DNA from: Acidimicrobiia bacterium | GTDB taxonomy: Bacteria > Acidobacteriota > Vicinamibacteria > Vicinamibacterales > CAVVIG01 | Direction: 5' to 3' | DNA: 35,006 bases | NCBI GenBank assembly: GCA_016871175.1 | Contig: VFZL01000042.1 | Location: forward strand, 1-35,006 | The notes under the pieces: model-generated | Told to the model about the DNA's origin: nothing | Seen by the model: only the letters and a program-made list of their open reading frames with translations | Database searches by the model: none | Position numbers and translations under genes: made by a program | Shown: piece by piece, positions 12,231-30,928 of the stretch | Layout of the letters: each line of letters opens with the position of its first letter | Numbering within the stretch: position 1 is the first letter of the stretch

Positions 12231-13757
12231 TTAACGCGTCGAGGACGATGCCCCTTCGGGCACCAGTACGCGTACCATCCCGTCTTGACCCGACGTCAAG
12301 AGCAACTCCCCGTCGCGGCTGATGCTGATGTGCAGATCCGCGCGCGGCAGCGTGGCACCGTTGGTCTTCTCCACCAGCTCTCGAAACGAGGTGTAGATGC
12401 GGTTTCCCTGGGCGTCCCGCACGAAGATCTGCACCTCTTCCACGGGCGCCACCGTCCGCGGCACGCCGTCGTCGGCCTTCTTCATCGCGGCGACGTCTGC
12501 CACGAACACGCGTCCGCGGGTGATGTCGCCGAACACGAACTTGCCGCGAAGCGCCGGGATGCGACCGTAGTACGCGAATCCGCCCGTGATCGCCTGGCCA
12601 TCACGGTGGTCGTAGATCGTGACCGGATAGGTAAAGCCGTCCTTCTGTCGTCCCTCCAGGATCTCGGCAGGCAAGGCAAACAACTGGCCCGGGTTGACGC
12701 CAGGACGCGTGACGCCGTTGTCGAAGTAGCCCTCGCGTTTCATCCATCCATAGTTCTCGCCGTTGCGGACGATGTTGATCTCTTCGATGTGATTCATCCC
12801 AATGCCCGAGGCGAACATGGTGCCGTCATTGCGATCCCACGAGATACGGTGCGCGTTGCGGAAGCCGTAGGCGTAGATCTCGCCAAGCGTCTTCGGATCG
12901 CCGTCGGCCGCGAAGACGTTGCCCTTCGGAATGGTGTAGTCGCCGAGGCCCTTGGCGCCACCGGTGACGGAGGGGCTTCGCGGATCGAAGCGGAGGATCG
13001 CGCCGACTACCGTGTCGAGCCGCTGCACTTGAGTGGGGTTGTTGGCCTTCGGTCCAGCGCCGTTGCTGAAGCCCAGGTCGTTCCCGCTCGTAAAGATCAG
13101 CCCGTAGTCGACGTCCCCAGGTCTCGCCGTCGGGTTGAACCCGACGAACCCGAAGGGGTGCGTCAGGCTGTCGACGATGTGCGCCACGCGTAGCAATTCC
13201 CGGCGTGTGCCGTCGAACGTGCTGGCCGCCGGGTTGGTGGTTCTTCACTCGGTGTAGACGTTGTGATACGTGACGTCCGCCGCGGTGAACGTGGGGGGAA
13301 TGAAATTGGGCGTCGCCGGATTGCCGGGTGCCCGCTCGGCGTGCACGGTGTAGAAGAGTCCGTTCTTGGCGAACTCGGGATGGAAATCGAACCCGATGAA
13401 ACCGCTCTCCAGGCGGTTGTGCACGGACAGCGGAAACACCTTGCCCACGTCGAGGCAGAGCAGGGGTTGGTTATTGGCGTCCAGCAGGTAGAGGAAGCCG
13501 CGTGAGTCGTTGACGAATCGTCGTCCGTCGGGTAAGTCGCGCACGAAACTGACTCTGGCCCAGCCCGATGGGTTGACGTCCTGGTCGGGCGGCCGCAGAC
13601 CTCGCGTCTGCGGCAGGCGTACGAGGTCTCTCACCTCGACCGCCAACCCGCGCTGCTCGACGCCGGCCGGGAGGGGAGGAGTCGGAATCTGGCCACCGAG
13701 CCCGCTGGCGGCTGCCAAGACGAGGCCGGCGACTGCGACGGGCGTTCGAGCAGGCAT
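12231..13757 (-). pseudogene. PQQ-type sugar (glucose/sorbosone) dehydrogenase split by in-frame TGA
   Basis: About 508 codons. The ATG at 13757 follows a strong GGAGGAG and begins a signal peptide (MPARTPVAVAGLVLAAASG). The first piece has FVNDSRGFLYLLD and SGFIGFDFHPEFAKNG, typical of soluble glucose/sorbosone dehydrogenase propellers, and ends at TGA 13245-13247 after YHNVYTE. The frame continues unchanged: RTTNPAASTFDGTRRELLR, then PFGFVGFNPTARPGDVDYG, LGEIYAYGFRNAHRISWD and a complete C-terminus. Homologues usually have a Trp in this position (a TEW pattern), so TGG to TGA is the simplest explanation. A TTG at 13196 could start the second part, but it would lack the signal peptide and first blades. 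The original enzyme would oxidise a sugar or sugar alcohol in the periplasm. Confidence 0.85.
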
Positions 13758-13872
13758 CACTCCTCCGTTCAAGGGCGTCGACGCGGATCGGGGCGAACGA
13801 TGTGACAGGCTATCACGCAGCACGCCTCGGCATAAGATGCGTGTCGACGGCCTGTATCAGAGGAGCCACATC

Positions 13873-19669: not shown

Positions 19670-21016
19670 TCAGACCCCTCTGACGAGCTCGAGCCTCCCC
19701 GTGCTGTCGCCCAGCGCATCGAGTGGTACGCCGAGCTTGTCGAGCAGCGCCAGCTGCAGATTGGTCAGCGGCGTGTCCTTGGCGACCCGGAGGTGTCGGC
19801 CGCCGTTCATCGATCCGCCCGCGCCTCCAATCACCAGGATCGGGAGGTTGTCGTGCGCATGGCGGTTGCTGTCGCTGATGCCGCAGCCATAGAGCAGCGT
19901 GAGCTGATCGAGGAGTGTGCCAGCGCCGTCGGGAATCGCTTGCAGCTTACCGAGGAAGTAGGCCAGCTGCTGGATGTGATAGGTGTTGATCTTTGCGAGC
20001 TTCTCCATGGCCACCGGGTTGTTTTGGTGGTGCGACAACCCATGGTGCGGATCGGGGATGCCGATCTCCGTGTAGGTGCGTGGGCTCACCTCTCGCGACA
20101 GGAGGAACGTGGTGACGCGGGTCATGTCGCACTGGTAGGCGAGCACCTGCAGGTCGAACATCAAGCGGGCATGCTCGGCAAACGTGTCAGGGATGCCGCC
20201 ACTTGGCCGCTCCATGGCGGGCAGCTCGATCTCGCTCTGCTCCTCGGCTCTCTGGATTCGCCGCTCGATGTCGCGGATCGCTTCGAGGTACTGCGTGACC
20301 TTCGCGCGGTCGCCGGGCTCGAGACGACGCTGGAGGCGAGCCACCTCCTGCACGAGCGAGTCGAGCAGGCTCCGATCGCTCTGGATCCGGCCGAGACGTG
20401 CGGCGCGCGTCGTGTTGTCGCTGTCGCCGAACAAGCGCTCGAACACGGCGCGCGGCTGGTTCTCCATGGGCAACGGCGTCGTCTCGTTGCGCCAGGAGAG
20501 CGTGTTCGCGTAGGCGCAACTGTAGCCGGCTTCGCACGCGCCAATCAGTTCGTTCGAATCGAGGCAGAGCTCGAGCGACGACAGCTGTGTCGCACGGCCC
20601 AACTCGCGGGCGGCGATCTGATCCATCGAAATGCCCGCGCGGATGTCGGGCCCCTCGGTCTTCTTCGGGTGTACGCCGGTGAGAAAGGTCGCCGCCGCCC
20701 GCACGTGATCGCCCGTGCCTTCCCCCGGCACCGGCACCGCGGGCTGATTGGCGAGCCCGGTGACGACCAGCAGACGATCGCGAAACGGCGCGAGGGGCTG
20801 AAGGATTGGCGTGAGCTCGAATGCGGTGCCGTCGGCGCTCGGGATCCACTGTTCCATCTGGATCCCGTTGGGCACGTACGCCACCGTGAGTCGGCGGACC
20901 GGCTGGGGTGTCGCGGCGAACGCCGGCACCATGCTGTCGAGGAACGGCAGCGCCACCGCGGCACCCATGCCGCGAAGGAACGTGCGACGTGGCAGGCACA
21001 GTTTCGTCACGATCAT
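19670..21016 (-). CDS. DUF1552 protein, Tat-exported
   Basis: A protein of 448 residues beginning with a twin-arginine signal (LPRRTFLRGMGAAVALPFLD). Family landmarks include VAYVPNGIQMEQWIP, LSSLELCLDSNE, YSCAYANTLSW, HHGLSHHQNN and LLYGCGISDSNRHAHDNLP, spread over the whole length, so it appears complete. DUF1552 proteins nearly always occur beside DUF1592/DUF1588/DUF1587 cytochrome proteins in planctomycetes and acidobacteria; the function is not established, though the DUF1501/sulfatase-like fold suggests a periplasmic hydrolase or partner. The start overlaps the regulatory zone of the upstream gene: its stop and a GAGGA lie within 15 bases of this ATG, indicating translational coupling. 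Confidence 0.88.
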   Translation of the reverse strand: MIVTKLCLPRRTFLRGMGAAVALPFLDSMVPAFAATPQPVRRLTVAYVPNGIQMEQWIPSADGTAFELTPILQPLAPFRDRLLVVTGLANQPAVPVPGEGTGDHVRAAATFLTGVHPKKTEGPDIRAGISMDQIAARELGRATQLSSLELCLDSNELIGACEAGYSCAYANTLSWRNETTPLPMENQPRAVFERLFGDSDNTTRAARLGRIQSDRSLLDSLVQEVARLQRRLEPGDRAKVTQYLEAIRDIERRIQRAEEQSEIELPAMERPSGGIPDTFAEHARLMFDLQVLAYQCDMTRVTTFLLSREVSPRTYTEIGIPDPHHGLSHHQNNPVAMEKLAKINTYHIQQLAYFLGKLQAIPDGAGTLLDQLTLLYGCGISDSNRHAHDNLPILVIGGAGGSMNGGRHLRVAKDTPLTNLQLALLDKLGVPLDALGDSTGRLELVRGV

Positions 21017-21026
21017 GATTGAGTCC

Positions 21027-23456
21027 TCATTCCGAGCCGGACGCGCGCCGGGTTCGCATGCGGAACGGCGCGCTCTTCGCGATCCCCAGTATCATCGCCG
21101 ACCAGCGGTAGTCGCTGCGGGCCGCCCCGTCGACGATCGCTCGAATCGCTGGCGCATCGTAGTACTCGACGCCGCGCCCAAGCGCGTAGGTCAACAGCTT
21201 CTCCGCCACGGTCGTCGCGAACTCCTCCCGACGGGCCAGCAGTGCCTGCCGGAGCGTCGCCGGTCCGTTCACCGAGGCGCCGTTTGCCAGCGTACCAGAC
21301 GGATCGATAGCGACGCCGCCCTCGGTCGAACGCCATCGGCCGATCGCATCGAAATTGTCGAGCGCGAACCCCAGGGGGTCCATCACTTTGTGGCAGCTGG
21401 CGCAGACTGGGTTCACGCGGTGTGCCTCCATGCGCGCCCGGACCGTGAGGGCCCTGCCATCCTGGCCGGCCTCCTGAAGCGCCGGGACGTCGGGCGGAGG
21501 CGGCGGGGGCGGGGCGCCCAGGATGTTCTCCAGGAGCCACTTGCCGCGAAACACCGGCGACGTCCGGTGGGGATAGGAGGTCACGGTCAACAGACCGCCT
21601 TTGCCCAGCAGACCGAAGCGGCTGTCGTCCGGTAACGTGACGCGGCGGAAGTGATTGCCGTACACGGTCGCGATGCCGTAGTGCCGTGCGAGCCGTTCGT
21701 TCAGGAACGTGTAGTCGGCGGTCAAGAGCTCGCGAACGCTGCGGTCATCTCGGAGCTGGCTTTCGAGGAAGAGCTCGATCTCTCGCGCGAACGCCTCGCG
21801 CAGATTTTCGTCGAAGTCTGGGAAGATGGCCGGGTCGGGCGTATGCAAGCGGATGTTGCGCACCCACAGCCATTGACCAGCGAAGTGACGCACGAGCGCG
21901 CTCGAACGGCGATCGGCCAGCATGCGGCGCACGTGCTGCTCGAACACCGCCGGCCGCGAAAGCTCACCCCGAGCAGCGGCGTCCAGCAGCGTATCGTCTG
22001 GGATGCTGCTCCAGAGGAAGAACGACAGCCGCGAGGCCAGTTCGATGTCGGACAGGCGGTAGGGTTGGCCTGGCGCGAGCTTCGGCGGATCGTGTTCGAT
22101 GCGGAAGAGGAAGTCGGGGCTCACGAGCGTCCGGCGCAGCGCCGCTTCGATGCCGGCGTCGAAATCGGCGCCACCCCTCGCTTTTCGCGCGTCCTCGTAG
22201 AACGCCAGCAACGGCCGGATGTCGGCCTCAGTGACCGGTCGTCGATAGGCTCGCCGCGCGATGGCCGAAATGATTGTCCGCGCGCACGCGGACTCCGAGG
22301 CCGCGGCCGGTGTCGCCGTCTTCGAGGTGCCGCCGCTGGCCGAGGGATGACACGTGAAGATGCGCGACCGGCTCGGTGAGTGACCGCTCCCGCGCACGGC
22401 GACGGGGCCGCGTACCTCCACCCGTCCAATCGCTGGCGGCAGGTTGATGTCGCCGGCGTACTCGTAACTCGTCACCGCATAGAAGGGCCGGCGCATCCCT
22501 TCTGGCTCGTCGACTTTCCTGACGAAGCTCACGCCGAGGGTCTTGGGGCCGGCGCTGGCACTGAAGCGTACCTCGGTGCCATCCACGGTCACGTTGCGCT
22601 GACCCCGGCCGGTCGATTCTGGACCACCGATGGTGATCTGTTGAATCCTGGCCCCATCCAGTCGCACCTCGAGCTCGTGCGCTTCGCCGAGCCCGCGGAC
22701 GCGGCCGTCGTAGGTCCGATCGAAGAACACCTTGATCGCGTAGTCGCCGTCGACGGGGAAGTAGTAGCGAATCGCCAGGCCGCCTCTCGAGCCGAAGGGG
22801 AGGTCGTCGCTCACGCGATCGTCCTGCCGCAGGTACTTGTTCACGGCGAACGTGTCGGTGATGGGCTGGATCGTCGGATTGCCCACCGCGATTCGGCTGA
22901 TCTTCAGCGCGGCTGACAGGTAGCGTTCGGTCAACATCGGCGAGATGGACAGCACGTCCGCGATGTTGTCGAAGCCGTAGCCGGAGTCGTCGGGAGGGAG
23001 GAGCGTCGACGCGTCGATCTCGATCCCGAGGAGATCGCGAATCGCGTGGGCGTATTCGGCGCGATTCAAACGGTGGACCGCGGGCCGGCGGCCGGGATTG
23101 GGATGCGACGCCGCAGCCGCGTCGATGGTGGTCTCCAGCCACGTGGCGAGACTGGCGGCGGTAGCGTCGTCGGGTCGTCGCGTGCCCTGCGGAGGCATGG
23201 TGCCGCTTCTCAGCTTTCGAATCACCTTCTCCCACAGGTCCGCCTGCGCGGGTACCTGCGACAAGTCGGCGACGTCGAGCGAGAGATTCGCGGTCTTCAG
23301 CCTGGCGTTGTGACAGGAGACGCAATAACGGTCGAGTGTGGCGCGATGGTGGGCCGGGACCGACGGGTCGCCGGGCGATTGAGACACGCCCGCCGCACGC
23401 GTTGTTTCACCGACGCTCAAGAGCAGTAGCGGGAGCGCGAAGAGGGCTCTAGGCAA
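21027..23456 (-). CDS. DUF1592/DUF1588/DUF1587-type protein with cytochrome c motifs
   Basis: A protein of 809 residues, secreted (FALPLLLLSVGETTRAAG). It starts with a planctomycete-type cytochrome c domain (YCVSCHN near residue 44, and the GTMPPQGTRRP segment), then the DUF1587 region (VHRLNRAEYAHAIRDLLGI), DUF1595 (RAYRRPVTEADIRPLL), DUF1592 (VSPDFLFRIE through GELSRPAVFEQHVRRML) and DUF1588 (HRTSPVFRGKWLLENIL, with a second haem-like CASCH), ending in DUF1585 (LLTYALGRGVEYYD). All domains are in the usual order with no break. The function is unknown; it is presumed to be a periplasmic redox protein acting with the adjacent DUF1552 protein. The start is TTG 23456; an in-frame ATG at 23516 is followed by a stop, so it is excluded. 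Confidence 0.88.
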   Translation of the reverse strand: MPRALFALPLLLLSVGETTRAAGVSQSPGDPSVPAHHRATLDRYCVSCHNARLKTANLSLDVADLSQVPAQADLWEKVIRKLRSGTMPPQGTRRPDDATAASLATWLETTIDAAAASHPNPGRRPAVHRLNRAEYAHAIRDLLGIEIDASTLLPPDDSGYGFDNIADVLSISPMLTERYLSAALKISRIAVGNPTIQPITDTFAVNKYLRQDDRVSDDLPFGSRGGLAIRYYFPVDGDYAIKVFFDRTYDGRVRGLGEAHELEVRLDGARIQQITIGGPESTGRGQRNVTVDGTEVRFSASAGPKTLGVSFVRKVDEPEGMRRPFYAVTSYEYAGDINLPPAIGRVEVRGPVAVRGSGHSPSRSRIFTCHPSASGGTSKTATPAAASESACARTIISAIARRAYRRPVTEADIRPLLAFYEDARKARGGADFDAGIEAALRRTLVSPDFLFRIEHDPPKLAPGQPYRLSDIELASRLSFFLWSSIPDDTLLDAAARGELSRPAVFEQHVRRMLADRRSSALVRHFAGQWLWVRNIRLHTPDPAIFPDFDENLREAFAREIELFLESQLRDDRSVRELLTADYTFLNERLARHYGIATVYGNHFRRVTLPDDSRFGLLGKGGLLTVTSYPHRTSPVFRGKWLLENILGAPPPPPPPDVPALQEAGQDGRALTVRARMEAHRVNPVCASCHKVMDPLGFALDNFDAIGRWRSTEGGVAIDPSGTLANGASVNGPATLRQALLARREEFATTVAEKLLTYALGRGVEYYDAPAIRAIVDGAARSDYRWSAMILGIAKSAPFRMRTRRASGSE

Positions 23457-23478
23457 TCCGGCCTGCCCAGCGATCCTT

Positions 23479-23500
23479 CACCTGACTCGCACCTGACTCG
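23479..23500. repeat. Perfect 11-bp tandem direct repeat, operator-like
   Basis: CACCTGACTCG occurs twice back to back at 23479-23489 and 23490-23500, in the 128-base divergent gap between the DUF1592 and ankyrin genes. The 11-base period places both copies on the same helical face, and the second ends 4 bases before the -35 of the proposed ankyrin promoter. This is a reasonable activator or repressor site, but no regulator is known. Confidence 0.45.
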
Positions 23501-23504
23501 CCGA

Positions 23505-23533
23505 TTGTGGCGACATGATGGCGCCATTATAAT
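23505..23533 (+). promoter_or_regulatory. Sigma-70-like promoter for ankyrin gene
   Basis: TTGTGG (23505-23510) and a perfect TATAAT (23528-23533) are separated by 17 bases, about 50 bases upstream of the ankyrin ATG. The -10 lies inside the palindrome CATTATAATG, so the minus strand also reads TATAAT there and could serve the DUF1592 gene, although no good minus-strand -35 is visible. A second palindrome, ATGGCGCCAT (23518-23527), sits in the spacer. Confidence 0.5.
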
Positions 23534-23584
23534 GACGCCGGGTCCGACCCGTGACGAGAATACCGGCAACCTGAGGCGTTCCGC

Positions 23585-25066
23585 ATGTCCACATGGCTCA
23601 ACACGATTGGAGCCTCGCTGACCCTCGCCGGTGGGCTGATGGCGGCGCCAGCGGCCGGCGGGGAACGGCGTCTGGCCGACGCTGCGAAGGACCAGGATCT
23701 GGTGGCGGTCCGAACGCTCCTCGCCGCGCGGGCCGACATCGACGGGCCTCGAGGCGACGGCACGACGGCGCTGCACTGGGCGGCGCACTGGGATCGGCGC
23801 GACATGGCGGACCTGCTGATCGCGGCGGGCGCACAGGTGAACGCCGCCGACGACCATCACGTGACGCCGTTGGCGCTCGCGTGCCTCAACGGCAGCGCCG
23901 GAATGGTGGCGGCGCTGCTCGAGGCGGGTGCGACCCCTAACGTGTCGTCGATCGCCGGTGAGACGCCACTCATGATCGCCGCGCACACCGGCAACGTGCG
24001 GGTGGTGCAGGCACTCCTGGCGGCAGGCGCGGACGTCGCCGCGCGCGAGCGCGCTCAGGATCAAACCGCGCTGATGCGCGCCGTCGTCAAGAGCCACGCC
24101 GACATCGTCCGCGCGCTCATCGCGGCGGGCGCTGACGTGCGGGCCCATTCGAGGAACCGCTTCACTCCTTTGCTGTTCGCCGCCCAGCAGGGGAACATCG
24201 AAATCGCGCGTCTGTTGCTCGACGCCGGCGCGAACGTCGACGAGTCAGCGCCCGATGGGATCGCGGGTGACACGAATGCGGCGCGCCGCTTCAAACCGGA
24301 CACCGACGCTGCAGCATTGCTCGTGGCGATCGATAGTCAGCACGAAGCGATGGCGCGCTTCCTGCTCGAGCGCGGCGGCGATCCGAATCTCGCCGGGGCA
24401 GGCCGGACCGCACTGCATTCGGCAGTGCAGCAGGCGATGCCTGAACTGGTCAAGACGCTGCTGTCGCGCGGGGCGGATCCCAACGCGCGGTTGACCAAGC
24501 CAATGCCCGCGCTCTCTCGATTCATTCTCCAGGCGCACGGGCTCGAGGTGGTGATCACCGGCGCCACCCCCTTCTGGCTGGCCGCCAGCTACGGTGACGT
24601 GGCGACGATGCGCATTCTCAAGGACGCTGGCGCGGATCCCCATGCCACGACCGCCGATGGCACGACGCCGTTGATGGCGGCAGCTGGCGTGGATTTCGTC
24701 GAGGGTCAGGACAAATACGGACGTCGCTGGTTCAGCGCTGACACCACGCCGGTGCAGGCGCGCGCCCGCGAGGCGATCCGCTATTGCCTCGAGCTCGGTG
24801 CCGATATCAACGCGGCCAACGACAAGGGACAGACGGCGCTCATTGGCGCCGTGTACTTCCGATCGCCGCCGCTGGTGAGGTTCCTGGTCGATCTCGGCGC
24901 CAAGGTGAACGTCGTCAACAAGCGCGGGCAGACGCCGTGGCTGATTACCCAGGGGGAATATCGCTCCGGATCGTATTTGACCGACAAGGCGACCGGCGAT
25001 CTCCTGGCGTCGCTTGGCGCCGACGTCTCGCTCGGTAAAGAGATTCCACTCGAACCGAAACGGTGA
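23585..25066 (+). CDS. Secreted ankyrin-repeat protein
   Basis: A protein of 493 residues. A signal-like N-terminus (TIGASLTLAGGLMAAPAAGG) is followed by about ten ankyrin repeats, for example DGTTALHWAAHWDRRDMADLL, GETPLMIAAHTGNVRVVQALL, RFTPLLFAAQQGNIEIARLLL and GQTALIGAVYFRSPPLVRFL. Two repeats are separated by an insert with ITGATPFWLAAS and a spacer containing EGQDKYGRRWFSADTT. Ankyrin repeats bind proteins; a periplasmic partner is likely but unknown. The ATG at 23585 has GAGG about 9 bases upstream. It is transcribed divergently from the DUF1592/DUF1552 cluster and may share regulation through the tandem-repeat region; such proteins are frequent next to these clusters in Acidobacteriota. 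Confidence 0.85.
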   Translation: MSTWLNTIGASLTLAGGLMAAPAAGGERRLADAAKDQDLVAVRTLLAARADIDGPRGDGTTALHWAAHWDRRDMADLLIAAGAQVNAADDHHVTPLALACLNGSAGMVAALLEAGATPNVSSIAGETPLMIAAHTGNVRVVQALLAAGADVAARERAQDQTALMRAVVKSHADIVRALIAAGADVRAHSRNRFTPLLFAAQQGNIEIARLLLDAGANVDESAPDGIAGDTNAARRFKPDTDAAALLVAIDSQHEAMARFLLERGGDPNLAGAGRTALHSAVQQAMPELVKTLLSRGADPNARLTKPMPALSRFILQAHGLEVVITGATPFWLAASYGDVATMRILKDAGADPHATTADGTTPLMAAAGVDFVEGQDKYGRRWFSADTTPVQARAREAIRYCLELGADINAANDKGQTALIGAVYFRSPPLVRFLVDLGAKVNVVNKRGQTPWLITQGEYRSGSYLTDKATGDLLASLGADVSLGKEIPLEPKR

Positions 25067-25107
25067 CGGCCCGCCGTCGCTGCGCCCGAGTCCTTCACGC
25101 CACAGCT

Positions 25108-25263
25108 TCAGCACCTGCTCCATGACGAGCCGTGGGCCAGACTGGTGCCGTCGAGAATGCGTCCAGAGCCGGAGCCGCTCGAAGAGCCTCCGCCGTGCAG
25201 CCACACCATGACCGGGCGTTTGCGTCCGTCGTTGAGACCCGGCGTGAACACGTTGAGGACGCT
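25108..25263 (-). pseudogene. Carboxylesterase type B fragment
   Basis: About 50 minus-strand codons read VLNVFTPGLNDGRKRPVM followed by VWLHGGGSSSGSGSGRIL and DGTSLAHGS, the conserved N-terminal block of type B carboxylesterases (LNVFTP, VWLHGGG oxyanion loop). A TGA stands immediately upstream at 25264-25266 and another ends the frame at 25108-25110. The nucleophile elbow and the rest (over 400 residues) are absent on both sides. A dead relic between the ankyrin gene and the truncated PEP-utilising gene. The remainder of 25067-25342 shows no gene. Confidence 0.7.
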
Positions 25264-25342
25264 TCACCCGATAGCGCATGGCCGGCGTCTTTCTGTTCGG
25301 GCTGCCACCGCTCCGGGGGCGCCGGCTGCAACGAGAACTGAA

Positions 25343-26540
25343 TCAGGAAATCTCGACCCGTCCGGTCGTTCCGTCGACGGTCACCGTCTGACCATCCACG
25401 AGCGACGAGGTCGCCGCGCCGGTGCCAACGACGGCCGGGATGCCGTATTCACGGGCCACGATGGCCGGATGCGCGAGCATGCGACCGTGGTCGGTCACCA
25501 GGGCCGCGGCACGCGCAAAAGCGACCGACCAGCTCGCATGCGTGCTTGGACACACCAGGATCTCGCCTGGTTCGAGCGCTGACAGTTCGGCTTCGTGGCG
25601 AATGACGCGCACCCGGCCGCTGACGCGGCCCGGGGACGCGCCGATGCCGGCCAGGGTGCCCTGCGGCGCCGGCGGCGGCGTACCGGCCTCCTCGAGCGCG
25701 ATGTGCCACGTGAAGGCACCGAGCAGGCGCTGCATCGCGGCGGGCAGGCCACGGGTTGAGGGCGGCGGCACTGGCGCGGGCCCGTAGAACGCGGGACCAG
25801 GGTTCGCGCGTACCCAGCGCAGCTCCGCGTGACGCCAAGCGGCGCGAGCCGCGGCCGGCTCGCCGGCGAGGCGGCCCTCGAGCGCCGGTGCGATTTCGGA
25901 GACTTCGAGATAGGCGATGTCGTCGGCACGGCGAAGGGCGGCGGCGGCCACGAGGCGCCGGCCCAGCTCGAGCAGCGTCCGTCGCAGAAGACCGATCGGC
26001 AGGCTCTGCGTGTAGAGGACGTTCTCTTCCCGGGTCGGGGGCACGCGCTCGGCCACGCTCAGCGCGCGATCGAAGCGTTCGCGGCCGGTCGGGCTCAGCT
26101 TGGCACGCGCACGGGCGATGGCGGACTCGCGCGTCCGCTGGCGGGCGCCGGTGGCCGGAGGCGGTTGACGCAACAACGCGAGCAGGGTCGACTCGTGCTC
26201 GGCCACCGTGGGCGCTCCCGGGTCGAGGTCGATCGAGCGTGAGCCCCAGGTGGCCAGCCAGGCCTCGAGCCGCTCGCCCGCCGCGCTGGCGCGCACGGCC
26301 GCGAGGCCCTGTGCGACCGCCTCCGGACCCGCGAGGTCGGCGATCCCGGCCATCTCCACCGCCGGACGCGTGACCGTGTCTGAAAGGCCGGCGAGCAACT
26401 CGAGCGTCTGCGCCGGGGTCCAACCAAGGCTGGCCTCGCAGCACCTGGCGAGATCGTGCACCGCCACCACGTCCGGCATCATGAGCTGGAAGTGGATGAC
26501 CAGCCCTGGCAGGGCCACCCGATCGATCAGGTGGTGCAGG
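25343..26540 (-). pseudogene. PEP-utilising enzyme, 5'-truncated
   Basis: About 400 residues resembling the central and C-terminal parts of PEP synthase/rifampicin-phosphotransferase-like proteins. The C-terminus is complete and has the mobile swivelling domain: GEILVCPSTHASWSVAF, then LVTDHGRMLAHPAIVAREYG with the phospho-carrier His, and IPAVVGTGAATSSLVDGQTV. The N-terminal ATP-grasp half is missing: recognisable sequence (HLHHLIDRVALPGLVIHF) stops near 26540, and the remaining upstream codons to 26590 lie in opposite-strand sequence belonging to an alpha/beta hydrolase. The gene therefore ends at a sharp junction. It could still be expressed from the GTG-rich upstream region but would lack nucleotide binding. 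Confidence 0.7.
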
Positions 26541-26541
26541 T

Positions 26542-27135
26542 GCCTTTTCCGGCACCGGCGTGCTAGCAGCGCGATTTGCCGGCTACGCACCCGAGCGCGT
26601 GGTGGCGGTCATCGCGGCGAATGCCGGCCACTACGATCCGGTCGGGCTCGATACCATCCAGATGTCGGACAGGGCAGCGGTGGTGCCGCAGAAGGTGATC
26701 GCCAGCAGTGGCGATGCGGTCTCGGGCACCCGGCGTCCTTATGACTACTTCCGCCGGCACCTCGACCGTGGCGCGCCGTGGGTCTTCGCCGTCCAGAATG
26801 GCGTGCCGCACTGCTGCGTCATCAACGCCCGGACGCTGGTGATCGACTGGCTCGAGCAGGTGGCCATCCCCTCACTCGCCGGCAAGGGGCCTATCGTGCG
26901 CAGCGGCGGCTACTACGGGTTCTTCGAGACGACGCCCAGCGTGGCCGACGACTGCCCGGCGCGGGGCGCGGCGAACTGACGGGCTCGGACGGCGAGCATC
27001 CTGAAGGCAGCCAAAGGAAGGGGCCCGGTCGCTCCGGGCGGATGGTTGCCGGCCGGCTGGTTCCCCACTCGTCGTCTTGCGCGCGAGTGGGAGGCCTTCG
27101 TCGTTGCGGAGCAGCCGATCACATCGCTGCCGTGA
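26542..27135 (+). pseudogene. Alpha/beta hydrolase, 5'-truncated, with in-frame TGA
   Basis: Plus-strand sequence begins abruptly at about 26542 with AFSGTGVLAARFAGYAPERV, which looks like the nucleophile elbow (FSGTG, G-x-S-x-G-like) of an alpha/beta hydrolase. Typical core follows: ANAGHYDPVGLDTIQM, YFRRHLDRGAPWVFAVQNG and the His-containing VPHCCVINARTLV. A TGA at 26977-26979 interrupts, but the same frame then gives the expected C-terminus GGWLPAGWFPTRRLAREWEAF, ending at TGA 27133-27135. All residues before the elbow, including the signal peptide and first strands, are absent. This is the plus-strand partner of the head-to-head junction. The assignment of the original family is by pattern only. 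Confidence 0.65.
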
Positions 27136-27305
27136 GTCGACCCGCTTCCTGCCAGTCTGGATCAGGCTTCGAACCGCTCTTTCTGCTGCAACCGCTCGGT
27201 CGCGGCTGCCGTGGCTGCTGTGCTTTCCCGATGCTCCGTTCCGGAGCCAGGCTGACAGGACCACGACAAACACGCGGCAGTCGCGGCAGATCGGTCAGCG
27301 TCGCC

Positions 27306-28030
27306 TCATTTCCTGGGCACAACCTCGATCTCGAAGAGTCGCGGCCAAAGGTTTCCTGTGACGAACAGGCGGTTCGTTGCCCGCATCGAACGCGATCCCG
27401 TTCAAGACCGCTTCGGGCTCGGACTTGTACTCGGGCGCCAGCAACCCTTGCAGATCGATCCACCCGGAACCCTGCCTGAATCGGGCGCGATCCTCGCGAT
27501 TCGATCCGTGTGCCACCTGTTGGCCCACACCTCGCCACGGACGTACTCGAGCTCATTGAGATCTCGAACACGAACGCCACCGTCGGTGACCGTGACCCGG
27601 CGGACTTCGCGGAAGGTCTCGGGGTGGAGGAATCGCAGCCGCTCGGTACCGTCGCTCAAGATGAAGCTCTCGCGGTCGAGGGTCAGGCCCAAACCTTCAC
27701 CGCGATACGTGAACGTGCGACGCGGCGCCGGGCTCGAGCGGTCATACACGAAGGCGATGTTCGACTGCCATGTCAGCTGCACGAGCTGGTCGTTCCACTC
27801 GGCCAGGCCTTCCCCGAAATGTGCGGTTTCAAGGCGACGCTGCTGGACCACTTCGCCGGTTTCGAGCCTGACGCGGCGGAACGTGGAGTGCCCGTTGCGG
27901 CCCGTGCTCTCGTAGAGGATTCCATCTCGATAGATGAGGCCTTGAGTGACCGCGGCCGCGTCGTGCGGATAGGTCAGGATCGTCCAGCAAACGGTCGAAC
28001 GTCGATATCGCGACTCATGCGCAAGGGCTC
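27306..28030 (-). pseudogene. Glutaminyl-peptide cyclotransferase (glutamine cyclase), twice frameshifted and 5'-truncated
   Basis: A minus-strand propeller enzyme that would convert N-terminal Gln to pyroglutamate. Recognisable sequence starts at ILTYPHDAAAVTQGLIYRDG and goes on through STGRNGHSTFRRVRLETGEV, GEGLAEWNDQLVQLTWQS and RDLNELEYVRGEVWAN. At about 27462-27465 the frame slips by one base: VPG continues in another frame as WIDLQGLLAPEYKSEPEAVL. At about 27380-27383 an extra G in a GGG run shifts it again, after which NRLFVTGNLWPRLFEIEVV reaches a natural TGA at 27306. No start codon or signal peptide is found: the 5' end runs directly into the methyltransferase stop at 28052. Nothing recognisable was found between 27136 and 27305. 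Confidence 0.75.
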
Positions 28031-28051
28031 GGCATCTGACGTGGTGCTTCG

Positions 28052-28675
28052 CTACGAGCTCGGTCGGCCCACCATGCCCCTCACCGCGTTGGCGCGGGCG
28101 CTGTAGGTGATCCGGCCCGTCGCGTCCGTTGGCAGCGCAGCTCGCAACCGATCTTGGAGCTGCCGCGCGTCGTCCGGCGACATCTCGCGGATGAGAGCGC
28201 CCATGCTTGCGGCTCCGAGCACCGTGTTCCAGTAGTCGTCGAAGTCCACGAACGTGCGCTCCACAACGATCTCCGTCGTGGCAACGGACTCGGCGCCGGC
28301 GCCGCTCCACAGTTGCCGCAGGCTGTCGATGCGAGATGCCTCGGGGCTTGGTGGTGCGGGAACCTGGCGCCCCATGTCCTTCAGCGCCCGAAACAACGTC
28401 GCGTAAGGAAAGCCGCCCCCGGGCATGTCCCAGGCGTAGGCGGCCATGACGCCCCCCGGTCGTGCCACGCGTGCCATCTCCGCGACACCTCGAGCGGGGA
28501 CGGACAGGAAGAAGACCACGAGCGGCATGACGGCGACATCGAACGCGGCCGAGGGGAACGGCAGCTCGTACGCGTCCCCGTCGCGAAACTGCACGCTCGC
28601 GAGCGCTGGCCGTGTGCGGGCATAGGCGAGCCGCTTGTAGGCGACGCCATCATCGAAACGGATGGTGTTGGTCAC
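28052..28675 (-). pseudogene. Class I SAM-dependent methyltransferase with internal deletion of the SAM-binding motif
   Basis: 207 residues in one frame from a GTG at 28675. The N-terminus (TNTIRFDDGVAYKR) and the rest, from LAYARTRPALASVQFRDGDA onward, match a common methyltransferase type (post-I acidic region GDAYELPFPSAAFDVAVMPL, ARVARPGGVMAAYAWDM, RTFVDFDDYWNTVLG, ITYSARANAVRG). Between them, at the codon junction near 28630, roughly 55-65 residues are missing, including motif I with its Asp and Gly-rich loop. The deletion is in frame, so a protein could be made, but it should not bind SAM. The C-terminus looks complete. The gene lies directly upstream of the decayed glutaminyl cyclase and 57 bases downstream of the VOC gene. 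Confidence 0.7.
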
Positions 28676-28732
28676 CGAGGTACGATCCGCGCGGGGGCTG
28701 CTGCCCGCAAGCGCCCGGCCCGGGAGGGCCCA

Positions 28733-29299
28733 CTACAGTTGATACCTGACGCTGCCCAGCTGGACGCTGATGCCGTCCGGATCCTTCAGCATCACGCTTC
28801 TCGTCTCCGCGGCCTGCGACACGCGGTTCTGATTCGCTCTCGGCTCGCTCTTCGGGAACCTGTCGCGCACCATCTCGAGCGCCCGGTCCGCGCCAGGCCA
28901 CGGATCGAGTCCGATGGCGAAGTGATCGACGCCAAGCGTCGACCGCTTGCCGAGCGACACGAAGCTGTCGCCGATGAGAAGGTCCACGTAGCCGGCTTGC
29001 GCGGAGGATCGCCCGTCGAGGAGCACGCTGGCGCCGAGAAGCGACCGATAGAACTGACGCGACTCTTCGATGTCGCTGACCGAAAGCGTGACGTGGTTGA
29101 CGATGCGGCCGCGGAAGAGCGCGTTCTTCGGCGCGGGCGCACCCGTCAGGTTGTTGCTGGGCTTCGCAGGTTGCTGCGAACTCGCGGCGGCAGCCTGCGG
29201 GGCCATCGCCAGAGCCGTCAAGAGCGCTCCGACGAGCTCGCGGCGGCTCAGTTGCTTTTGGTCGTACATCGTGAGCAGTGTGTCGATTGTTTCAGGCAT
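28733..29299 (-). CDS. Tat-signal VOC-family protein
   Basis: A protein of 188 residues. The ATG at 29299 is chosen because AAGGAGG lies 8 bases upstream and because the sequence then reads PETIDTLLTMYDQKQLSRRE, with a twin-arginine-type signal (SRRELVGALLTALAMAPQAA). One vicinal-oxygen-chelate domain follows: VNHVTLSVSDIEESRQFYRS, a central GVDHFAIGLDPWPGADRALE, and a terminal SVMLKDPDGISVQLGS with a probable acidic metal ligand position occupied by Gln. Single-module VOC proteins dimerise to make the metal site. The substrate is unknown. It appears intact among decayed neighbours. Confidence 0.8.
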   Translation of the reverse strand: MPETIDTLLTMYDQKQLSRRELVGALLTALAMAPQAAAASSQQPAKPSNNLTGAPAPKNALFRGRIVNHVTLSVSDIEESRQFYRSLLGASVLLDGRSSAQAGYVDLLIGDSFVSLGKRSTLGVDHFAIGLDPWPGADRALEMVRDRFPKSEPRANQNRVSQAAETRSVMLKDPDGISVQLGSVRYQL

Positions 29300-29379
29300 T
29301 CCCGGGCCTCCTTGGCCTACCGGCTGCGCGAGTCGCACGAGGCCAACCGCCGCAGCAGTACGACGACTCCGACGCGGCG

Positions 29380-29589
29380 CTAGCCTCTCGCGGCGCGCGG
29401 CACATGCGGTCGACCGACCCCCATGACCTCCCAGCCCGTTCCGTGGTCGTAGGTGGAACGCCGTTGGACATGAAGATCGCCGTAACAGAGCTTCCGCAAG
29501 ATCGAGTCGGGACGCAAGTGCCAGCTGGCCCAGGACCGTGGCCAGTCGCCATGCATGTCTTTCGCCTCGACGTTCGCGCCCGCGTTCAT
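29380..29589 (-). pseudogene. C-terminal fragment of an ankyrin-repeat protein
   Basis: About 69 codons ending at a stop at 29380: NAGANVEAKDMHGDWPRSWA is an ankyrin repeat turn and helix, followed by SWHLRPDSILRKLCYGDLHV and GWEVMGVGRPHV, which recall the tail of some bacterial ankyrin proteins. No earlier repeats are present; sequence above 29590 is unrelated. No sensible start was found. It is presumed to be a relic. Confidence 0.55.
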
Positions 29590-29653
29590 CTCCCCCGAGA
29601 CTGTCTGTTCGGCCGCTGGTCGATCACGGCGCCGTGTGCCTGTCGAAGCAGCG

Positions 29654-29770
29654 CTACTTGGCGCCGCTGCCCCGCAACAGAAGGATGAAGCACACCACGT
29701 GGCAGATGACGAGCGGTGGCCCCGCAAAGACGGGCACGTACCACTGCGTGGCCAGGTGCGCGATGGTCCC
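29654..29770 (-). pseudogene. Fragment of a small membrane protein
   Basis: A minus-strand stretch ending at TAG 29654-29656 reads TIAHLATQWYVPVFAGPPLV and then ICHVVCFILLLRGSGAK: a polar stretch, a Trp/Tyr-rich interface and one strongly hydrophobic segment. The codon pattern looks coding, but no start codon or family is recognised. The bases between it, the ankyrin scrap and the propeller gene (29300-29821 overall) contain nothing else that can be supported. Confidence 0.35.
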
Positions 29771-29821
29771 AGTGGCTCCGGCATGGCATCTACGATGATG
29801 ACCACGGGCTCTCGGGTGGGC

Positions 29822-30928
29822 TCAAGGCCGTCGCAGCGAGAAGCGGGCGATGCGGTCGTCGTTGCTGCCCACCCAGATGTCGTCGCCCACTCGCATGGCC
29901 GAACTGACGCGTTGCATCGCGGCCGTTTGATCCGCGCCGCCGAGTCGCGAGAAGGCGAAGGTCTCCGGATCGACTTCGAGCACCGACCAGCCCGTGGCGC
30001 AGCCAGCGCCGCTGCACTGCCCGGGCGGGACATAGTTCGGACCAGCGGTCAGCAGCTTGCCATCGGTGGCCCAGTGGACGTTGTCCGGCCGAATGGGCAG
30101 TGACACCGTGCGCTTGGCCATCGGCGTCGACCGGCGATCGAAACGAACCAGCTCCTGCGAGCCGATGGCGGCCACGTAGATGTAACGCTCGTCCTTCGAG
30201 ACGTCGATACCGTTCGGCAGCGACATATCGGTGTCGGCAAGCCGCTGCGGTTGGCCGCCCGGATGCCATTCGACCAGATGGCCGGTGATGCCGACCGGGG
30301 CACCTCCACCCCCCTTGAAGTTCTGGTCCCGCATTCTGGTCGCCACGAATCCGCCGTCGGCGAGCCGGGCGACGCTGTTGTGATAACTGTCCTGCTGCAG
30401 CACGACGCAGCCCTTCCACGTGAGCATCGGCGCCGTGCCGCGCAGGTCGAGATCGTAGATTTCGATGGCTTCGCGCACGCCATGGCTCGTGGTGTACAGG
30501 CTGAAATGACGGGGCGACGTCTCGGTCAGGCTGAGCCCGTGGACATCGAAGGCCTGGAGGTTCAGCGGTCCTGGACAGTCGGGATAGGCGCGGGTGTCGT
30601 GCTGGAGCCTGAAGGTGGCGCCGTGGATGAGCTCCGATTGCGCCCGTGTCGCAGGATCGATCAGATACAGGTGACCGGGTGCACGGTGACCGGATACGAG
30701 CAGAAGGCCGGAGGAACCAACGGTGAGGATATCCTCTGGGACGCTGAGGTCACAGATGTAGGTGAGTCCCTGCTCGTTGCGACAACCGGGCAAAGGGGCA
30801 ACTGCCTGCTGGCCCGGTGCGGTGGCGGCAGGTAGTGACTCGGTCGCGTGCTCAGCCACGACGGAGGGTGTGACGGCGCCAAGGAAAGCAACGATCGCGG
30901 CGGGGATACTATGCTGCAGGGTCATCAT
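29822..30928 (-). CDS. Secreted SMP-30/gluconolactonase-like beta-propeller protein
   Basis: A protein of 368 residues with a signal peptide (HSIPAAIVAFLGAVTPSVVA). Blade-like repeats are visible: SSGLLLVSGHRAPGHLYLID, FDVHGLSLTETSPRHFSLY, LPNGIDVSKDERYIYVAAIG with the conserved NGI/D of the SMP-30 and paraoxonase folds, and a last blade VGDDIWVGSNDDRIARF. Four Cys in LPGCRNEQGLTYICD and QCSGAGC may form disulphides in the periplasm. This fold includes gluconolactonases, arylesterases and strictosidine-synthase-like enzymes; calcium is the usual cofactor. The specific reaction cannot be assigned. Two adjacent ATGs at 30928 and 30925 are both possible. Confidence 0.78.
   Translation of the reverse strand: MMTLQHSIPAAIVAFLGAVTPSVVAEHATESLPAATAPGQQAVAPLPGCRNEQGLTYICDLSVPEDILTVGSSGLLLVSGHRAPGHLYLIDPATRAQSELIHGATFRLQHDTRAYPDCPGPLNLQAFDVHGLSLTETSPRHFSLYTTSHGVREAIEIYDLDLRGTAPMLTWKGCVVLQQDSYHNSVARLADGGFVATRMRDQNFKGGGGAPVGITGHLVEWHPGGQPQRLADTDMSLPNGIDVSKDERYIYVAAIGSQELVRFDRRSTPMAKRTVSLPIRPDNVHWATDGKLLTAGPNYVPPGQCSGAGCATGWSVLEVDPETFAFSRLGGADQTAAMQRVSSAMRVGDDIWVGSNDDRIARFSLRRP

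Follow-up and report, generated by a model that had tools for sequence, protein, structure and literature searches.

Two truncated genes meet head to head in the window, the whole stretch of 35006 bases analysed here, and their junction is probably the scar of one deletion that joined two divergent genes in a decaying stretch of the chromosome. The window is contig C42 of a draft genome (4.44 Mb, 85 contigs, 96.8% complete). When homologous proteins were compared with it by tblastn, two similarities met near 26542/26545. On the minus strand, positions 25343-26542 correspond to the C-terminal half of a PEP-utilising enzyme of the PEP-synthase-like type with its phosphohistidine 'mobile' domain, as judged from a PF00391 match and an alignment to a homologue in genome G059. 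On the plus strand, alignments to homologues identify 26545-27135 as the C-terminal part of a hydrolase-like gene, which begins at an FSGTG stretch and retains a conserved C-terminus up to 27132. A preliminary description of this DNA had placed a head-to-head junction of two 5'-truncated genes at 26530-26550, and this was borne out by the tblastn searches with longer homologues.

The junction and the two remnants

Residues 389-787 of the G059 PEP enzyme (791 aa with our choice of start codon) aligned at 26542-25349 on the minus strand with 43% identity (E 4.5e-57), and residues 154-356 of a hydrolase-like protein of genome G007 (356 aa as a stop-to-stop frame) aligned at 26545-27132 on the plus strand with 47% identity (E 7e-52). 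The edge of the hydrolase similarity was stable and fell at 26542 or 26545 in all eight tblastn settings. The edge of the PEP similarity was unstable and ranged from 26518 to 26623. With the low-complexity filter on it lay at 26542 in three settings and at 26518 in one; in the four settings with the filter off it lay at 26575-26623, and at 26569 in a further search. Without the filter the PEP similarity continued weakly beyond the point where the hydrolase similarity begins, and in one case it crossed a stop codon. Because the PEP edge shifts with the setting, the gap of two bases between 26542 and 26545 should not be taken literally. The two genes had been described as meeting within about 10 bases; the similarities do meet within some tens of bases, and a distance of about 10 bases is possible within the range of the PEP edge. 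Judged from the alignment edges, the breakpoint falls inside the interval originally given, plus or minus some tens of bases. The junction zone can be drawn at 26518-26578, without strand, from the start of the hydrolase similarity and the end of the filtered PEP similarity, and the exact junction would most likely lie within it at about 26542-26545.

No repeat or mobile element marks this point, in agreement with the preliminary description. The 27-mer at 26530-26556 occurs only once in the genome, even when up to three mismatches are allowed, and the 501 bp around the junction gave only self-matches. None of the repeat families of at least 14 nt listed for 25060-28740 (10 direct and 18 inverted) had a copy at 26530-26560, although one copy of a repeat may be removed by the deletion itself. 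A six-frame Pfam search of 25064-29899 detected no mobile-element family.

The PEP remnant is part of a minus-strand open frame of 415 aa (25343-26590) which ends at a normal TGA stop and contains the phosphohistidine mobile domain PF00391 (E 2.8e-24). The longer resembling protein is encoded by G059, a genome of the same order; measured against it, about 388 of 791 residues are gone from the remnant, the ATP-binding half among them. The ATP-binding domain PPDK_N was detected in the intact G059 homologue but was absent both from the 25343-26590 frame and from the six-frame Pfam search. The remnant thus shares the linker region and the phosphohistidine mobile domain with the PEP synthase/PEP-utilising family (PF01326 plus PF00391), whereas the ATP-binding N-terminal half of this family is gone. 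The stretch TDGGSVLSHAA of the G059 protein reads TDHGRMLAHPA in the remnant, with the histidine retained. PEP-utiliser domains are common in general (59 of 60 relatives gave a match at E<=0.001). Close relatives of the enzyme are sparse and were found in at least 3 of 396 genomes of the phylum at E<=1e-40, the own genome counted, a lower bound since few candidates were scored per genome.

The starts of homologous frames were compared with the junction. Only 4 of 20 PEP homologues (L003, L005, L006 and L018) align to residue 36 or an earlier residue of the window protein, and their frames extend 128-430 residues further upstream; the other 16 align only downstream of residue 36 and, offsets aside, give no information on the start. 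Forms without the ATP-binding half do exist. Four frames of 548-588 aa (L004, L005, L006 and L057) are of this kind, with 128-155 extra upstream residues by ungapped offset, and in genome G498 the two halves of the enzyme appear as separate matches. Stand-alone mobile-domain frames of 140 aa and 144 aa were found in G030 and G037, respectively, and start far downstream of the junction. A 436-aa PEP-utiliser frame in G004 ends at a contig end. Among the homologues examined none was seen to start at the junction.

The hydrolase remnant lacks the first 153 of the 356 residues of the G007 protein. The remnant also carries an in-frame TGA at 26977-26979 (plus strand), which faces a tryptophan in all three usable homologues (L049, L050 and L023); a fourth row, L048, was left out of this comparison as it represented a transporter in the wrong frame. 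Ahead of the TGA there is a short loss of about 16 codons relative to genome G015, counted by eye, and past the TGA the conserved C-terminus resumes. Longer resembling proteins are present in G007 and G015, two genomes of the same family as the source. They share 47-58% identity with the remnant over its C-terminal part, whereas the remnant differs from them by the missing front, the short internal loss and the TGA. Support for the original label 'alpha/beta hydrolase' is weak. With the intact homologue, a PETase-like model gave E 0.024, below the cut-off of the model, and a lipase structure gave E 0.22, and the G007/G015 protein gave no Pfam family above cut-off. Close relatives of the hydrolase were found in 3 of 162 genomes of the order and, with the full-length query, in 6 of 396 genomes of the phylum, the own genome being counted in both cases.

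In-frame TGA codons and lesions in neighbouring genes

A second in-frame TGA is found on the same contig. The glucose/sorbosone dehydrogenase (GSDH) gene at 12231-13856 on the minus strand is interrupted by a single TGA at 13245-13247. This position is TGG in the loci of 6 of 11 relatives, and the other five gave no match to the motif pattern. The gene is 69-74% identical to the seven copies found in the same family. One of these seven, the copy of genome G014, itself carries an internal TGA and an internal TAA. The possibility that UGA is read as tryptophan was rejected, since reading frames end in TGA more often than in any other stop and the genome encodes release factor 2. In a sample of 800 kb, TGA terminated 228 of 414 coding-scored frames of at least 250 codons, and no UGA-reading tRNA was among the 5 tRNA genes detected by ARAGORN in 40 stretches of the own genome (800 kb). 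At 7007-7405 of contig C48 of the own genome (G000) there is a short match that resembles a release factor and contains a single internal TAA. A codon-bias scan for in-frame stops returned 2.4 candidates per 100 kb for the own genome, 11.5 for G001 and 5.5 for G007. As the scan found none of the known TGAs of the window, and many of its hits in the controls resembled antisense frames by eye, nothing was drawn from it about an excess of in-frame stops.

Lesions were also found in three genes next to the junction, all on the minus strand. At 25132-25257 Pfam detects a scrap of a carboxylesterase, 42 residues corresponding to positions 88-129 of a profile of 515, lying between stops of its frame; its score of 25.5 bits is just below the cut-off of 27. 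At 27306-27983 a domain search and a homologue alignment revealed the remnant of a glutamine cyclotransferase gene with two frameshifts. The frame is lost near 27465 and regained near 27376, a longer homologue is present in G001, and inspection by eye showed neither a start region nor a signal peptide. The third is a methyltransferase remnant at 28052-28675, recognised by a Methyltransf_11 match and by alignment to a homologue in G007. It is about 56 codons short (residues 41-96 of the G007 homologue), a gap that takes in the initial third of the Methyltransf_11 domain, and the match of its N-terminal piece, which lies in the same frame, is short and weak (E 0.35). The alignments were first run without composition correction; only those of the methyltransferase and the cyclotransferase were repeated, and the rest were taken as noise.

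A glyoxalase-like frame at 28733-29338 appears whole by eye, although its Pfam match covers part of the model only. Near end-to-end family matches were obtained elsewhere in the window for a PQQ dehydrogenase, DUF1552, the DUF1592 group, an aldo/keto reductase and an MFS protein, and 6 of 20 window frames scanned had no family match. The DUF1592-group/DUF1552/ankyrin set at 19670-25066 has many diverged relatives in the own genome. Among the matches listed, counterparts of approximately 20001-22310, 22650-23350 and 23640-24260 lie close together on several contigs of G000, G001 and G015. This set represents a family expansion.

The coding density around the junction is 78% against a median of 89%, and 32 of 100 chunks of the own genome have the same density or less. 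If only frames of at least 200 codons are considered, 22 of 100 chunks do so. Coding density is thus unremarkable, and it is the homology evidence only on which we base the term 'decay zone'.

Origin of the junction

The arrangement can be explained as follows. In the ancestral state, an intact gene for a PEP-utilising enzyme would have stood beside an intact hydrolase-like gene, and the two would have been transcribed divergently. One deletion with its ends inside both genes would have taken their 5' halves, by homology about 1.16 kb of the PEP gene and 0.46 kb of the hydrolase gene, and the intergenic stretch with both promoters would have been lost in the same event. The result would be two C-terminal remnants joined head to head. 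Illegitimate recombination may have been the route of the deletion, and presumably neither remnant works. The preliminary description had offered a deletion/inversion or a chimeric assembly as the cause. A deletion is the simplest of these, since two divergent genes have each lost the end that faces the other; the geometry does not call for an inversion, for which no second breakpoint was found, and the chimera received no positive support. The TGA and the short loss within the hydrolase remnant, together with the lesions in the three neighbouring genes, argue for decay. The thin spread of PEP and hydrolase relatives is as expected of accessory genes and fits the loss, without selection, of genes that are rarely held.

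A search of the remaining genome for the missing 5' halves, as had been proposed, did not find either of them in the 96.8%-complete assembly. The hydrolase query gave only the remnant itself and a match on contig C6 (E 0.03) at E<=1. At the same threshold, the N-terminal half of the G059 PEP enzyme matched C54:35-772 (E 1.1e-33), C73 (E 3.8e-6) and C26 (E 0.16). The match on C54 was considered as a sign of misassembly and rejected. C54 and C73 overlap by 170 bases, of which 169 are identical, and the match represents the 5' part of a different PEP-synthase-like gene. This second gene is split across C54:1-808 and C73:3892-5779.

Neither the same arrangement in a relative nor a homologue that starts at this point, either of which had been thought to speak against truncation, was seen among those examined. 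Within 15-20 kb around four hydrolase genes (G007, G015, G366 and G443) there was no match to the PEP enzyme at E<=1e-6, and within 17 kb around the PEP gene of G059 and 6 kb around that of G498 there was no match to the hydrolase at the same threshold; both comparisons have little power, as few relatives carry either gene. Since no relative has the intact pair side by side, one event looks the same as two, and we infer both the former adjacency and the single event from the geometry of the remnants.

That the assembler joined two unrelated pieces of DNA at about 26543 is unlikely, and is the best of the alternatives. In its favour, the assembly is a draft in 85 contigs, and the two genes are not found together in any relative examined. 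Moreover, exactly 127 bp at the right end of the contig (34880-35006) recur without a difference at contig ends of C18 and C8, and this probably reflects graph-based assembly of short reads, with a branch point of the graph at this place. A false join in graph assembly requires shared sequence, however, and the single occurrence of the junction sequence means that a shared stretch was not found here. Neither missing half turned up as a leftover on another contig, and the genes on both sides of the join carry further lesions. The tetranucleotide profiles to the left and right of the junction (0.980 and 0.984 against the genome mean) lie within the range of 40 chunks of the own genome, which reach down to 0.950, although a join with DNA of a near relative would stay invisible in this measure (G007 0.979, G015 0.968).

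It is slightly less probable still that two genes, each broken separately, were brought together by an inversion or translocation. The geometry is compatible with such a rearrangement, and ancestral adjacency is not seen among the relatives examined, but an extra event would be required, and after an inversion the halves might be expected at the other breakpoint, whereas they were not found in the assembly.

Some chance of a working PEP remnant is left by the common occurrence of PEP-utiliser domains and the existence of short stand-alone forms. It is highly doubtful, though, that its expression begins antisense to the hydrolase remnant and yields a stand-alone phosphocarrier or a partner of the PEP synthase-like enzyme encoded on C54/C73. 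Least credible of all is a natural start of both genes at this point as short stand-alone proteins: the 415-aa frame with its phosphohistidine domain and normal stop, the 548-588-aa forms, the separate halves in G498 and the 140-144-aa mobile-domain frames would suit it, but the 548-588-aa forms run further upstream, and the hydrolase remnant opens at the FSGTG stretch and contains the in-frame TGA.

The single deletion thus remains the preferred reading. To annotate either frame as a working enzyme would require further evidence, and the junction should not be cited in support of a fused or bidirectional locus. If it is real, the locus adds one more example of several closely spaced lesions in a bacterial genome, with little import beyond annotation.

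Pseudogenes that arise by deletion across two adjacent genes are a known phenomenon in bacteria. In these cases, too, two truncated frames meet without a mobile element and in the company of frameshifts and nonsense codons. The present junction does not differ from them in kind, although its ancestral arrangement is a reconstruction. Most likely the locus is an ordinary one, a pair of pseudogenes produced by common gene decay.
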